Virus record (IMG/VR): IMGVR_UViG_3300006922_000143
Span: 1-26,674 of that record
Direction: 5' to 3' (one strand)
Length of the DNA stretch: 26,674 nucleotides
From: a virus
The notes beneath the pieces are model-generated. The model was not told the DNA's origin. It ran no database searches and saw only the letters and a list, made by a program, of their open reading frames with translations. The position numbers and the translations under genes were made by a program. Positions 21,848-26,674 of the stretch are shown in pieces (position 1 is the first letter of the stretch; each line of letters opens with the position of its first letter).

Positions 21848-22710
21848 TAATATTCACCTCTTAGTTTTGTGTAGTGTACGGTAGGTGGCTCTTTCTTGCC
21901 ACTATATACCTTAGATGGTAGGCTCTTTAGTTCAGGCCAACATTTAAACTTATGGTTACAGAAGGTACAGGACTTGGGTAGCTTGTAGTTACCACTAGCC
22001 TTACCTCTATATACCTCTGGTTCGTCTGTAAAGCATCTCTCAAACGGTGCATTGCTATCAAGGTAGGTGTGTACATCCCTTATCTTTTGTAACACTCTAT
22101 CCTTGTCTACCTCTGCTGCTGAGACATACTTGAAGCTACCGTTGTTTTTATTAACAACCCACCAGCCACCAACTTTTTTCTTAGCTGCTGCAGCGTAGCC
22201 TACAAGCTGTGGCACATAGCCGAAGGAGTCACCCTTCTCTAGCGTGTAGAAGTCAACAAACTTATTCTCATATGACCATGTACTAGCTGACTTGACATCA
22301 TCTATCTTGCCATCCAACAGCATGTCATACTCACCAGAGACTTCATCCTTGTCGTTTAGTGACAGTGTTACCTTTTCATTGTCACCAAACTCTGTTCCAG
22401 ATGCTCTAAGCAAACCTTTTAGCAGAGCCTCCACCATGTCACCAAATATCATATTGATTTTAAATGACGTAGGCAGAGGCTCCTGATGATCGGGATTGTT
22501 CTTCTCGAACCATAGCTGACACTTTGGACGCCCAACGTTGGACATCCTAAGTTTAAACTCTCGCTTTTGTTCAACAGAATTGAACTGTTTGTCGAGAGCA
22601 GCACCAATATCATCTTTGATTTTATCTATAACATCCTGAGACATCGTAGACTTGCCCTCAATGGAGCTTCTAAGATACTGATGTAGTGCTAGTTCAGCAG
22701 GGTGGTTCAC
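21847..22710 (-). CDS. PD-(D/E)XK exonuclease with four-cysteine cluster (287 aa)
   Basis: The start is a GTG overlapping the previous stop as GTGA. The nuclease core shows FGDMVEALL, Asp129 in SGEYDMLLDG, Asp138-x-Lys140 in DDVKSAS, and Gln168-x3-Tyr172 in PQLVGYA, the RecB/Cas4 pattern. Cys64 (RPKCQLWF) together with Cys248, Cys251 and Cys257 (CTFCNHKFKC) match the 1+3 cysteine layout that binds a 4Fe-4S cluster in Cas4 and AddB-type nucleases. It probably degrades DNA ends, in the place of T7 gp6 exonuclease, between the polymerase and endonuclease genes. Cluster binding is inferred from spacing. Confidence 0.82.
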   Translation of the reverse strand: MNHPAELALHQYLRSSIEGKSTMSQDVIDKIKDDIGAALDKQFNSVEQKREFKLRMSNVGRPKCQLWFEKNNPDHQEPLPTSFKINMIFGDMVEALLKGLLRASGTEFGDNEKVTLSLNDKDEVSGEYDMLLDGKIDDVKSASTWSYENKFVDFYTLEKGDSFGYVPQLVGYAAAAKKKVGGWWVVNKNNGSFKYVSAAEVDKDRVLQKIRDVHTYLDSNAPFERCFTDEPEVYRGKASGNYKLPKSCTFCNHKFKCWPELKSLPSKVYSGKKEPPTVHYTKLRGEY

Positions 22711-23546
22711 TGGTCAAAATCCTCCACATCAACTATGTTGGTAACTATGTCTTGATCCTGTGATGATATTGTCTCTACATTATTCTCTGCCCATTTACTA
22801 ATAACATAATCATTACTAGAGTCAATGTAGTCTAGAAAGTTTTGTAGTGTTTCATTATCACCGTCAGACAAGCCAACGAACTCACTAAGTGAAGCGTTAG
22901 TTACCATGTACGGATTGCCGTTAGGCAAGCTGCGTGATTCACCCAGTAGAGCTATGGTGTGTTCTGCAGGGTTAATCTTTTTCTTAATTAGTTTACCTAT
23001 CATACCATCAATAAACTTCATGCTATCTCTGTTCTTAACATCCATAACAAAGTCAAACTCTTCTTCATGTCCTGTTACTGGATCACCACTTTCATAAAAA
23101 GGATCTACTAATCTAGCTTTACCCATCATAACTTTGACACGGCTAACGCTACGTATGAAATCCTGTTGATCTTTTGGTAAGCCTTGGAAGTCTTTAATGT
23201 AGCCTGACGGTCTACCCAGGTTGAACGTGCCAAGTGTATCTTTCAAGTCAACGTTTAGTGAGTTGGACATGACTGACTTCTGCATAGTCTTGTTCTCGCT
23301 ATCCCAACGTTGCCACTTTTGACGCTCTGCAAATAGTCTTACTTTTACTTCTCTGGCGTAGACTACATCATCTTCAGTTGTAATCTTAAATACAGGTGAG
23401 GAAGCTACCTTGCCATCAACAACTTCCTGTAAAATTGTGCCTGTAATCCTACCTAGACTAGACTGAGACTGCGTTGCAGGGCTTGAGAAACCCATAGCGT
23501 CCGTTAAGTTCATGTTGTCTACTTTAAGTGCTACTGCGTTATCCAT
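22707..23546 (-). CDS. Replication-module protein, possible single-stranded DNA-binding protein (279 aa)
   Basis: The ATG has AAAGG about eight bases ahead, after a 48-base gap from the polymerase. The sequence is mixed beta and helix (SLGRITGTILQEVVDG, DVVYAREVKVRLFAERQKWQ), with a large central domain and a strongly acidic C-terminal tail ending DIVTNIVDVEDFDQ. An acidic tail with an aromatic near the end is typical of phage single-stranded DNA-binding proteins such as T7 gp2.5, and gene order (polymerase, this gene, exonuclease, endonuclease) fits. No family motif was recognised, so the function is inferred from tail and neighbours. Confidence 0.5.
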   Translation of the reverse strand: MDNAVALKVDNMNLTDAMGFSSPATQSQSSLGRITGTILQEVVDGKVASSPVFKITTEDDVVYAREVKVRLFAERQKWQRWDSENKTMQKSVMSNSLNVDLKDTLGTFNLGRPSGYIKDFQGLPKDQQDFIRSVSRVKVMMGKARLVDPFYESGDPVTGHEEEFDFVMDVKNRDSMKFIDGMIGKLIKKKINPAEHTIALLGESRSLPNGNPYMVTNASLSEFVGLSDGDNETLQNFLDYIDSSNDYVISKWAENNVETISSQDQDIVTNIVDVEDFDQ

Positions 23547-23594: not shown

Positions 23595-25673
23595 TTAAAC
23601 GTCTTTTGTGTCAAGCCAATTATCTCCTATCTTTGATTCTAATAACAAAGGAACGTTTACTTTTATATTATATTCTTTTTGAATCATATCATTTAGATTA
23701 GAGTTAATCAAATTAATTGTACCTAACACATCATTTATTTCATCAGGGTGTGTGTCAATTACCATACTATCGTGGACACTGTTGACTAGACAAGACTGCA
23801 TAGGCTCAAGCAAACGATCAAGCTCTATGAGTACAACAGGTACAACATCACCTGTAGCAAAGCCTTGAACAGGGTAGTTCTTAATCATGGTAAAGTGAGA
23901 CACAGAGCCGTTCTCTCTACGATGCACGTCAGGAAAAGCGTACTGCCTACCACTGACATTAGTTATCTTACCCTCGTTAACTGCCTCGTCACCCAACCTG
24001 CTGTGCCACCTAGCTATACCTTTATACTTCTCTACGAACTGCTTATAGTATGCAGCTTCTGCCTTGCTTCTACCATATCCTGTAGCGCCAAAGAGAGGGG
24101 CGAAGGTGTGTGCCTTTGCTTCTTGTCTAGATGTAGGTTGCCCTGCATCACTGATAACCTTTGCCGTGTAGGAGTGTACGTCAAATCCTGTATCAATCTC
24201 CTGCATGGCTGTATTATCTTGTGCTAGGAACGCAGCCGTTCTAAACTCAAGTTGGGCAAAGTCGGACTCAATTATTTTGCCACCCTCCCACCGTGAGATG
24301 AACACACGTTTTATTGGGAAGGTTCCTCCTCTTGGCATGTTTTGCATGTTGGGATTTCGTCCAGAGAATCTACCTGTACTGGTGATATGCTGGGTAAGGT
24401 TGATGTGTAGTTTGCTACTTCTTTTACAGTTGGTGATAATGCCATCCACAAAGCTACTAAGATAACTACTAATAGCACTAAGCCTCTTAACGTCTTGTAA
24501 AAATTCAATTGCTTTCTCCATATTGTTGTTTTTAGCTGTGGCTATAAGTGCATCCAGGTTTGACTTACCTACACCAAAGCCATTGGCACTGACCCACTTT
24601 TTACTTGGAGGAAAAAAACCAAGCCCTGCCATCTCATTTGTTTCTGTGAGTAGGAAACCCCTACCATCACAGTCCTTACATTTATTTGGTATCTTATATA
24701 GTGTACCATCCTTTCTTTTTTTATGTACTCTGCCATACCCACCACAGTTAGGACAAGTAGATGCTTTTGTTTTAAACAAAGGATCACTAACAGACATCAC
24801 TATACTTTTAAACTTATCTTTACATGCTTTGTGTGATGCAAGTCTGTAATCACTACTGTCATCATAGTTAAAATAATTAATCCACTCTTTTTTATCTTTG
24901 GGTTTGCGACTAAAGATTACCCACGACATTTGTTCTGGGGAGTTAAGATTAATAGGTGTGCCACCCATCAGTTCCCTTGTTGTGGCTTGCAGTCTATCAA
25001 GTATTTCGTTGCGCTCTCGCTCGAATTTATCACGGACGTTTTCGAGGGCATCTCTATCCACCCTGATTCCTGCCATTGACATCCTTGTGAGGACTTTGCA
25101 GGTTCTAAAGGTGACGCTTTTGACTGCTTGTAAAGAGGCAGAGTCAGGACTGTTGAAGTCTTCTTCAATTGCTTTGTACAACTCGCCAGTGGTAAGAAGA
25201 TCAAGGTCAAGATAATGACTGAGTTCATCAAGTGGTATCTCATTGGTATTGTATCCTTTCTTGTAGTACGTCTTAAGTGTATCATCTTTCTGATACTGTA
25301 GCTCACGCCTGATAGCGCACTGCTCTAGACTAAGAGGTTGCTTCTGTCCACGTAAAAGTAAATACTCTGCAAGCATTGTGTCATATATGTCACCATCATA
25401 CTTAAAGTCGTTAGCCCATAGCCAGGCTAGATCGTACTGTAGGTTGTGTCCTATCAGCAAAGTTGTATTGTCTAGCATCCTCTGTAATACACAGGAGTTA
25501 GACTTATGCTGTTCTGTTGCTTCTTTGTGGTCAAACGGTAGTAGTCTCTTCTCTCCTGTATCTAAGCACAACACACCCACCTCAGTAAGCGTGTTAGCAG
25601 GTTCATATGGATCATTAAATATCTTACCATCTCGTAGAGTTATAGAGTTCTCTACATCTAAGACTCTCCTCAT
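23595..25673 (-). CDS. Family A DNA polymerase with 3'-5' exonuclease and DnaJ-like zinc finger (692 aa)
   Basis: It replicates phage DNA. The ATG at 25673 overlaps the helicase stop as ATGA and has AAGG upstream; an in-frame start at 25727 would overlap the helicase by 58 bases. Exonuclease motifs: Asp6/Glu8 (LDVEN), Asn77/Asp81 (HNLQYD), Tyr154/Asp158. Polymerase motifs: A, Asp471 (ESDFAQLEFR); B, Arg516/Lys520/Phe524 with GATGYG; C, His634/Asp635 (NSVHDSMV). Between NLNSPEQ (232-238) and GVGKSNLDALIA lies an insertion with C307/C310 (CPNCGGYG) and C332/C335 (CKDCDGRG), two DnaJ-type zinc repeats. The combination is known from HMO-2011-type marine phages. All catalytic residues are present. 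Confidence 0.95.
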   Translation of the reverse strand: MRRVLDVENSITLRDGKIFNDPYEPANTLTEVGVLCLDTGEKRLLPFDHKEATEQHKSNSCVLQRMLDNTTLLIGHNLQYDLAWLWANDFKYDGDIYDTMLAEYLLLRGQKQPLSLEQCAIRRELQYQKDDTLKTYYKKGYNTNEIPLDELSHYLDLDLLTTGELYKAIEEDFNSPDSASLQAVKSVTFRTCKVLTRMSMAGIRVDRDALENVRDKFERERNEILDRLQATTRELMGGTPINLNSPEQMSWVIFSRKPKDKKEWINYFNYDDSSDYRLASHKACKDKFKSIVMSVSDPLFKTKASTCPNCGGYGRVHKKRKDGTLYKIPNKCKDCDGRGFLLTETNEMAGLGFFPPSKKWVSANGFGVGKSNLDALIATAKNNNMEKAIEFLQDVKRLSAISSYLSSFVDGIITNCKRSSKLHINLTQHITSTGRFSGRNPNMQNMPRGGTFPIKRVFISRWEGGKIIESDFAQLEFRTAAFLAQDNTAMQEIDTGFDVHSYTAKVISDAGQPTSRQEAKAHTFAPLFGATGYGRSKAEAAYYKQFVEKYKGIARWHSRLGDEAVNEGKITNVSGRQYAFPDVHRRENGSVSHFTMIKNYPVQGFATGDVVPVVLIELDRLLEPMQSCLVNSVHDSMVIDTHPDEINDVLGTINLINSNLNDMIQKEYNIKVNVPLLLESKIGDNWLDTKDV

Positions 25674-26674
25674 GCTGAGTACCTTGCTCTCTCTCCATCT
25701 AACTGACAGTGAACAACCCCATGCCATCCACCCTTTAGTTTATTCTTTGCTACGTTCAAGTGTCTCTGTGTGTCTGACTCAAACTCACCCTCTACTTGTG
25801 GATTCTTTGATATCAAAACCATCAGGTCACACTCAGCAGCTTTACCTGTCTTACTACCTTCAAGCATAGATTGATCTACATATATCTTACCCTCTGCCTC
25901 TGCTGATAGCTGAGACATCCAGATCACAGCACAGTCATACTGCTTGGCAATATTCCTAGCGTGTATCGCTGCATCCTTGAGGTATACATGAGAGTCTGCA
26001 CCTGTCTTACTGGCAAACTTGTCACCCATATCAAGTACAACTACGTCTGGCTTGTGGTTCTTAACTACTGCCTCAACCCACACCATGTCCTTACCTGTGC
26101 TATCAACTATCTTAATGTTGTCATACACTGGTTTGTATCTTGTAGATGCTAAAGCGTAGTTAGCTTTGATCTCTTCCATAGGCATGTTAGATGCAGCACT
26201 AAGATACCTAGCACCAACACGAGTGTAGTCTTCTTCGTTACATAAGATGATACACTTAGCCCCTTGTCTAGCAAAGCCACGCTCAGATGCAATCAGAGAG
26301 GCATGAAAGGATGTTTTACCTGTGTTAGGTCTAGCACCCACCAAGACTAAATGTCCACCTGATATGCCCTCTACCTTACGCTGTAGTGACGGTATATTAA
26401 ACTGCCACTTAGACTGTATCTCATTAGCTACCAATAGATTGTCAATAGATATGTCACCCCAATCAACTTTTAAGTTAGGCATGAAGTTATCTTGATAGTC
26501 AGTCAGTATATTACGCAGTGGCTCAAGTGTGTTCTTCTCACCATTAACGTAGTCGAAACCTAAGTTGGCTACCTCTTCACCTACTACCTGTTGAAACAGA
26601 TTAGACATAACCTCTTGAGCTACCTCTTGGTTCATAGGTCTTTCTTGTCGCAGCTTATCAAACAATCTTTTGTA
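25670..26674 (-). CDS. DnaB-type replicative DNA helicase, 5' end cut by window edge
   Basis: It unwinds DNA ahead of the polymerase, as a hexameric RecA-fold ATPase. The frame is open to the right edge, so the start is outside; a TTG at 26665 is not credible. Counting from that TTG, the core shows Walker A GARPNTGKT (110-118), a likely catalytic Glu in LCNEED (143-146), Walker B VVVLDMGD (208-215), the sensor-like MSQLS (250-254), and basic AKNKLKGGW near the C-terminus. At least 334 residues are visible, and ~100 precede the core. No primase zinc finger or TOPRIM motif is in the visible part; primase may lie upstream. It overlaps the polymerase start by four bases. Confidence 0.85.
   Translation of the reverse strand, partial: YKRLFDKLRQERPMNQEVAQEVMSNLFQQVVGEEVANLGFDYVNGEKNTLEPLRNILTDYQDNFMPNLKVDWGDISIDNLLVANEIQSKWQFNIPSLQRKVEGISGGHLVLVGARPNTGKTSFHASLIASERGFARQGAKCIILCNEEDYTRVGARYLSAASNMPMEEIKANYALASTRYKPVYDNIKIVDSTGKDMVWVEAVVKNHKPDVVVLDMGDKFASKTGADSHVYLKDAAIHARNIAKQYDCAVIWMSQLSAEAEGKIYVDQSMLEGSKTGKAAECDLMVLISKNPQVEGEFESDTQRHLNVAKNKLKGGWHGVVHCQLDGERARYSA

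Follow-up and report, generated by a model that had tools for sequence, protein, structure and literature searches.

The polymerase locus

Within the window (the whole 26,674 nucleotide stretch of viral DNA analysed here), a family A DNA polymerase with 3'-5' exonuclease and polymerase domains is encoded on the minus strand at positions 23,595–25,673. Counted from its likely start at M19 the protein is 692 aa, and the gene overlaps the stop codon of a helicase gene. The open reading frame (ORF) is longer (710 aa, 23,595–25,727, minus strand), with a start that falls within the helicase gene. M19 (position 25,673) is the start in most of the close relatives compared and leaves a 4 base overlap with the helicase stop codon; it is probably the true start. 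Residue numbers given below for this polymerase refer to the 710 aa ORF. Directly upstream, a gene for a DnaB-like replicative helicase (25,670–26,674, minus strand; DnaB_C, E=1.5e-13) runs past the end of the window, and the C-terminal end of its product (...GERARYSA) has no acidic character.

The polymerase matches the Pfam family DNA_pol_A (PF00476; E=2.4e-48, 165 bits, cut-off 34) and is 65% identical to the polymerase of CRP-603 and 54% identical to that of HMO-2011. Its DNA_pol_A domain, conserved catalytic residues and modelled Pol I fold place it in family A, and the combination of an exonuclease, a partial DnaJ domain with two CXXCXGXG motifs and PolA makes it an HMO-2011-type polymerase. 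As the exonuclease and polymerase catalytic motifs are intact, and invariant among HMO-type relatives, the product appears to be a functional replicase.

The position that aligns with the tyrosine of LIYG in Klenow falls in a tripeptide LFG (residues 545–547, about 24,087–24,095). Most relatives have LYG here, and CRP-603 also has LFG.

HMO-2011-type phages are a dominant and widely distributed group in the ocean (PMC9038755). The partial DnaJ domain with its two motifs is their published hallmark, by which more than 2000 sequences have been selected (PMC9038755, PMC6918029 and PMC8528129). The first-pass annotation had said that this domain was known in HMO-2011-type phages and that its role was not; the accessible parts of these papers contain no tested function of the domain.

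An insertion at the tip of the thumb

The polymerase carries an insertion of ~105 residues (24,582–24,905, minus strand, residues ~275–382) between thumb helices H1 and H2. H1 (24,912–24,938, minus strand, residues 264–272) follows NLNS and lies within NLNSPEQMSWVIFSR; it was assigned from the secondary structure of the model and from alignment to Klenow and cellular Pol I. H2 (24,528–24,566, minus strand, residues 388–400) was assigned from the model and from alignment with the cellular sequence GYSTDVTVLETL. The insertion starts directly after H1 and stops before H2. It is carried by all HMO-type relatives and is missing at that site in cellular Pol I and in T7.

Three lines of evidence support this placement. 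A phmmer comparison aligned FNLSSTKQLQTILFEKQ of Klenow directly with INLNSPEQMSWVIFSRK of the window polymerase, and the alignment then ends. Cellular Pol I sequences taken from genome contigs read NLNSPKQLGYILFEKL...VVKKTKTGYSTDVTVLETL, whereas the window polymerase reads NLNSPEQMSWVIFSR, the insertion and then GFGVGKSNLDALI, and NLNSP and TGR lie 86 residues apart in the cellular enzymes versus 191 in the window polymerase. Exactly at the H1–H2 site, cellular Pol I has a short basic loop, VVKKTKTGYST. The third line is an AlphaFold2 model of the polymerase (93 sequences, pLDDT 92.2, pTM 0.85), in which H1 (264–272) is followed by helices at 279–286 and 300–312, strands at 314–324 and 358–366, and H2 (388–400). 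Within the insertion pLDDT is mostly 85–96, except at about 281–300, and falls below 50 only at 289–291. Among the matches listed, the model aligned with Bst and Taq Pol I over 510–540 residues (Z 33–34.5, rmsd about 3). The 50 structural matches listed do not include T7 gp5, an absence that carries no weight. Thus, in a confident model, the insertion is predicted to be mostly ordered and the polymerase fold to be retained.

That the insertion splits the thumb after NLNSPEQ, as the first-pass annotation had it, is therefore confirmed by the alignments with Klenow and cellular Pol I and by the model. The extent proposed at that time, residues 257–354, agrees with numbering from M19, but the zinc motif makes up only about 33 residues of the insertion; the remainder is modelled as two helices and flanking strands.

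The cysteine motif and the basic hairpin

Both cysteine motifs reported earlier are indeed present in the polymerase, on the minus strand: CPNCGGYG at residues 325–332 (24,732–24,755) and CKDCDGRG at residues 350–357 (24,657–24,680). They bound a putative single-site DnaJ-like zinc ribbon (24,657–24,755, minus strand, residues 325–357), in which a basic hairpin, RVHKKRKDGTLYKIPNK (24,681–24,731, minus strand, residues 333–349), lies between the cysteine pairs.

As the published criterion is the motif itself, a check on relatives gathered without reference to cysteines matters, and ours were collected by similarity over the whole polymerase. From IMG/VR the set draws 283 complete or nearly complete HMO-type polymerases, of which 278 cover the motif region and the other 5 are fragments that start inside or after the motif. 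The four cysteines are kept at fixed spacing in all of those covering the region (278/278), as CXXC-X21-CXXC in 255 and CXXC-X33-CXXC in 23, and no relative without the cysteines was found. Judged from these sequences, the motif is not a product of chance.

Across an alignment of 93 sequences, the interval from 275 to 360 has just seven invariant positions (C325, C328, G330, G341, C350, C353 and G357), and the stretch around them is otherwise variable. Residues K336 (88% K, 9% R), 338 (80% K, 17% R) and K339 (84% K) are near-invariant. The 17-residue hairpin has a net charge of +4 to +7 in 105/105 non-redundant members, and the glycine at its turn, G341, never varies. In the long form, found in a CRP-738-like subgroup, the hairpin is 12 residues longer and its net charge is +7 to +11. 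Because hairpin charge and G341 are maintained while the surrounding sequence varies, we conclude from the alignments that the charge of the tip is under constraint alongside the putative metal site.

The basic hairpin with the 12-residue insertion (QKFKxxTRQKNGKKYRxQGEPYKN) is seen in CRP-738 (locus L062), in loci L340, L339, L385 and L378, and in similar ones.

The match to PF00684 (E=2e-5; profile positions 13–54 of 65) scores 25.2 bits, below the cut-off of 32.7. By sequence, the best match among solved structures is to motifs 2 and 3 of Escherichia coli DnaJ (1exk, E=0.001), followed by Anti-TRAP/RtpA (E=0.04). The likeness to these proteins lies in a pair of CXXCXGXG motifs that would surround one zinc, corresponding to DnaJ motifs 2 and 3 in a small single-pair form like that of RtpA. 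However, the DnaJ central domain has four such motifs and two zinc sites and the window polymerase has two motifs only, in a module that has a strongly basic hairpin and sits inside a polymerase. No J domain, the part that stimulates DnaK, was found among the Pfam matches of the polymerase, which is thus not a DnaJ/Hsp40 protein. 'Single-site DnaJ-like zinc ribbon', with zinc binding presumed, appears to be the right label.

Comparison with the T7 polymerase

In T7-type polymerases the insertion that separates thumb helices H and H1 binds thioredoxin, with a gain in processivity. In the T7 gp5 record the extra sequence, which is this thioredoxin-binding domain, stops immediately ahead of FNPSSRDH and so lies on the opposite side of H1. 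A profile alignment of the family with T7 gp5 was rejected, as it superimposed the two insertions in a misleading register, and cellular Pol I sequences were used instead as the bridge between the window polymerase and T7. On this comparison, the earlier view that the site differs from the thioredoxin-binding site of T7 is correct: the T7 insertion precedes H1 and the one described here follows it. The same bridged comparison revealed no T7-type insertion before H1 in the HMO-type lineage, where no more than a few residues are added. The further suggestion, a role as a stand-in for thioredoxin, is not established, as no T7-type insertion precedes H1 and phage polymerases that lack the zinc motif enlarge the same H1–H2 site.

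The two insertions are nevertheless alike: each is an accessory addition to a phage family A polymerase, placed in the thumb and provided with basic residues, and the T7 domain works near duplex DNA, as we propose for the one described here. They differ in that the T7 domain has no zinc motif and needs thioredoxin, whereas the HMO-type insertion has its own putative metal site. Crosslinks between T7 polymerase and nucleic acid centre on thumb helices H1, 6c, 6d and H2 (T7 residues 346–355, 360–373 and 388–394; PMC9198812), which makes a role in processivity reasonable and supports, by analogy, a position of the H1–H2 region on the DNA path.

Zinc-free insertions at the same site

The H1–H2 loop is also enlarged in polymerases of the Autographiviridae (such as Alteromonas H4/4 and phiV141), ICP2 and MEP401. 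These share the insertion site, a lysine-rich loop and a clade with the HMO-type polymerases, and the Autographiviridae insertion is of similar length, but they lack the zinc motif; no CXXC occurs in the thumb region of 77/79 Autographiviridae polymerases. The lysine-rich loop is conserved in 57 Autographiviridae-type members, with a net charge of +2 to +6 in 57/57, two invariant glycines, K343 in 96% and K345 in 82%. In a model of one Autographiviridae insertion (pLDDT 90.9) the fold is all-beta, with strands around the basic loop. The idea that the Autographiviridae insertion is the same fold with its cysteines lost was rejected, as this model is all-beta and the HMO-type insertion is modelled as a helix/strand module. 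Going by the models, HMO-type and zinc-free insertions appear to have only site and charge in common, and homology of the loops is not established.

In a tree of the polymerase domain, phage polymerases with an H1–H2 insertion cluster apart from T7 and cellular Pol I (support 99/93). How the two zinc groups branch relative to the zinc-free one has support of 63/21 only, and long branches (T7, MEP401) limit the tree, which is compatible with a single gain as well as with a loss. Across the polymerases aligned, the H1–H2 site is not special to zinc.

The polymerases of ICP2_2013_A_Haiti (L065) and MEP401 (L067) are each encoded by two ORFs, and the break falls between TGR and motif A. The gap in MEP401 contains a 77 aa ORF, and in other ICP2 isolates the matched region contains an HNH endonuclease gene.

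The neighbouring acidic-tailed protein

Phage single-stranded DNA-binding (SSB) proteins combine an OB fold with an acidic C-terminal tail, and such a tail is a hallmark of SSB proteins. In related loci the polymerase gene is followed by one for a fast-evolving, very variable protein of ~280 aa, and in the window this is a 279 aa protein (22,707–23,546, minus strand) whose last 20 residues, ISSQDQDIVTNIVDVEDFDQ (22,710–22,769, minus strand), are acidic by net charge. A net charge of −4 or lower was found for the last 20 residues in 70/70 relatives; among the tails of 238 other ORFs in these loci the share was 4.6%. Sequence searches found no convincing family, fold, PDB or T7 gp2.5 match, and a gp2.5-like identity was set aside for this lack of similarity. 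Gene position and the acidic tail make the protein a candidate SSB-like protein.

Possible roles of the insertion

We propose that the insertion is a zinc-stiffened basic element at the thumb tip that grips the product duplex and raises processivity without thioredoxin, and hold this with about even confidence. Such an accessory module would be built on one zinc ion with four cysteine ligands, and the zinc would pin the base of the lysine/arginine-rich hairpin and fix it in a rigid position at the thumb's end. At the H1–H2 loop, where family A polymerases contact newly made duplex, the positively charged hairpin would give the enzyme a further hold on DNA that has left the active site; this would slow dissociation and raise processivity, with no need for thioredoxin. 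Trimming of the thumb tip of Klenow reportedly affects processivity, which is not counted here as evidence. As the T7 crosslinks fall in the region that is enlarged here, added grip on the duplex would be the simplest role for a rigid basic hairpin. The site, the conservation of cysteines and charge, the confident ordered model and the sharing of the site with zinc-free phage polymerases are directly supported; zinc binding, DNA contact and an effect on processivity are what we infer.

Against a grip on DNA, the basic surface might just as well be a binding site for the acidic tail of a protein. These roles are not mutually exclusive, and the thumb-tip element possibly also docks the SSB-like protein of the same phage by its acidic tail. 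That docking of this neighbour is what the insertion is for seems to us a rather unlikely alternative, though one with several points behind it. The tail is acidic in every relative, far above the background of other ORFs, despite the variability of the protein; the charge of the hairpin is better conserved than its sequence; and the thioredoxin-binding region of T7 binds the acidic tails of helicase and SSB (PMC5997990 and PMC7699545). However, the neighbour has no detectable similarity to SSB proteins, an acidic SSB tail can have many partners, and the helicase does not end in an acidic tail. We are similarly doubtful of a stronger form of the proposal, in which the zinc-pinned hairpin alone replaces thioredoxin, keeping a basic thumb loop ordered so that the polymerase can clamp duplex DNA and also bind the SSB of the same phage by its acidic tail. 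If true, it would be a factor-independent module for processivity and replisome assembly at a second thumb site, used without zinc by related phages.

A passive structural or fidelity element, in which zinc stands in for the hydrophobic core of a decorative insertion and processivity and partners are little affected, would fit the differing folds of the insertions between lineages, as for a tolerant surface loop, and the zinc-free forms that need no metal. It is distinctly unlikely, as the basic residues and turn glycine of the hairpin, besides the cysteines, are conserved in a variable region. Docking of a host protein, thioredoxin or another, was also raised in the first-pass annotation and has a precedent in T7 (PMC9198812), and the annotated part of CRP-603 (the first 50 kb) lists a glutaredoxin and no thioredoxin. 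We nonetheless consider it very unlikely, as the site is not that of the T7 thioredoxin-binding insertion and the presence of one conserved module across phages of SAR116, Roseobacter and SAR11 hosts does not speak for a specific host partner, though it could have a conserved one. Recruitment of host DnaK to the replication complex by a borrowed DnaJ function appears highly improbable. The best structural match by sequence is indeed to DnaJ motifs 2 and 3, and DnaJ in phage (lambda) replication is mentioned in the HMO-2011 literature (PMC9038755), but there is no J domain, only two of the four motifs are present, the hairpin sequence is unlike that of DnaJ, and CXXCXGXG pairs also occur in unrelated zinc proteins such as Anti-TRAP.

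Relation to described polymerases

The polymerases of HMO-2011, CRP-1/2/3 and HTVC033P are the same gene, with a partial DnaJ domain, two CXXCXGXG motifs and 34–67% identity (PMC9038755 and PMC6918029), and we see no essential difference between them and the window polymerase. In the published description of this type the domain is placed 'between exonuclease and polymerase domains', which is refined here to the thumb H1–H2 loop with a conserved basic hairpin. Plant organellar polymerases also have lineage-specific thumb insertions proposed to contact duplex DNA, but these are unrelated and linked to lesion bypass, and the accessible text of PMC7699545 mentions no zinc motif in them. In the open-access literature, outside which most subscription journals lie, we found no published zinc element in a family A thumb, nor the thumb-tip site, basic hairpin, zinc-free counterparts or acidic-tailed neighbour. 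The domain itself is thus already published, and what this analysis adds is the thumb-tip site, the basic hairpin, the site shared with zinc-free polymerases and the acidic-tailed neighbour. The placement, the hairpin and the zinc-free counterparts turn a 'partial DnaJ domain' into specific testable proposals, and could reveal another way in which family A polymerases have evolved processivity, as well as a processive enzyme that is free of thioredoxin.

HMO-type phage contigs of up to 63 kb (loci L395–L402) were found inside bacterial and archaeal metagenome-assembled genomes (MAGs) assigned to Euryarchaeota, Flavobacteriales and Neomarinimicrobiota. The same contigs appear in two different MAGs, and these are probably binning artefacts.
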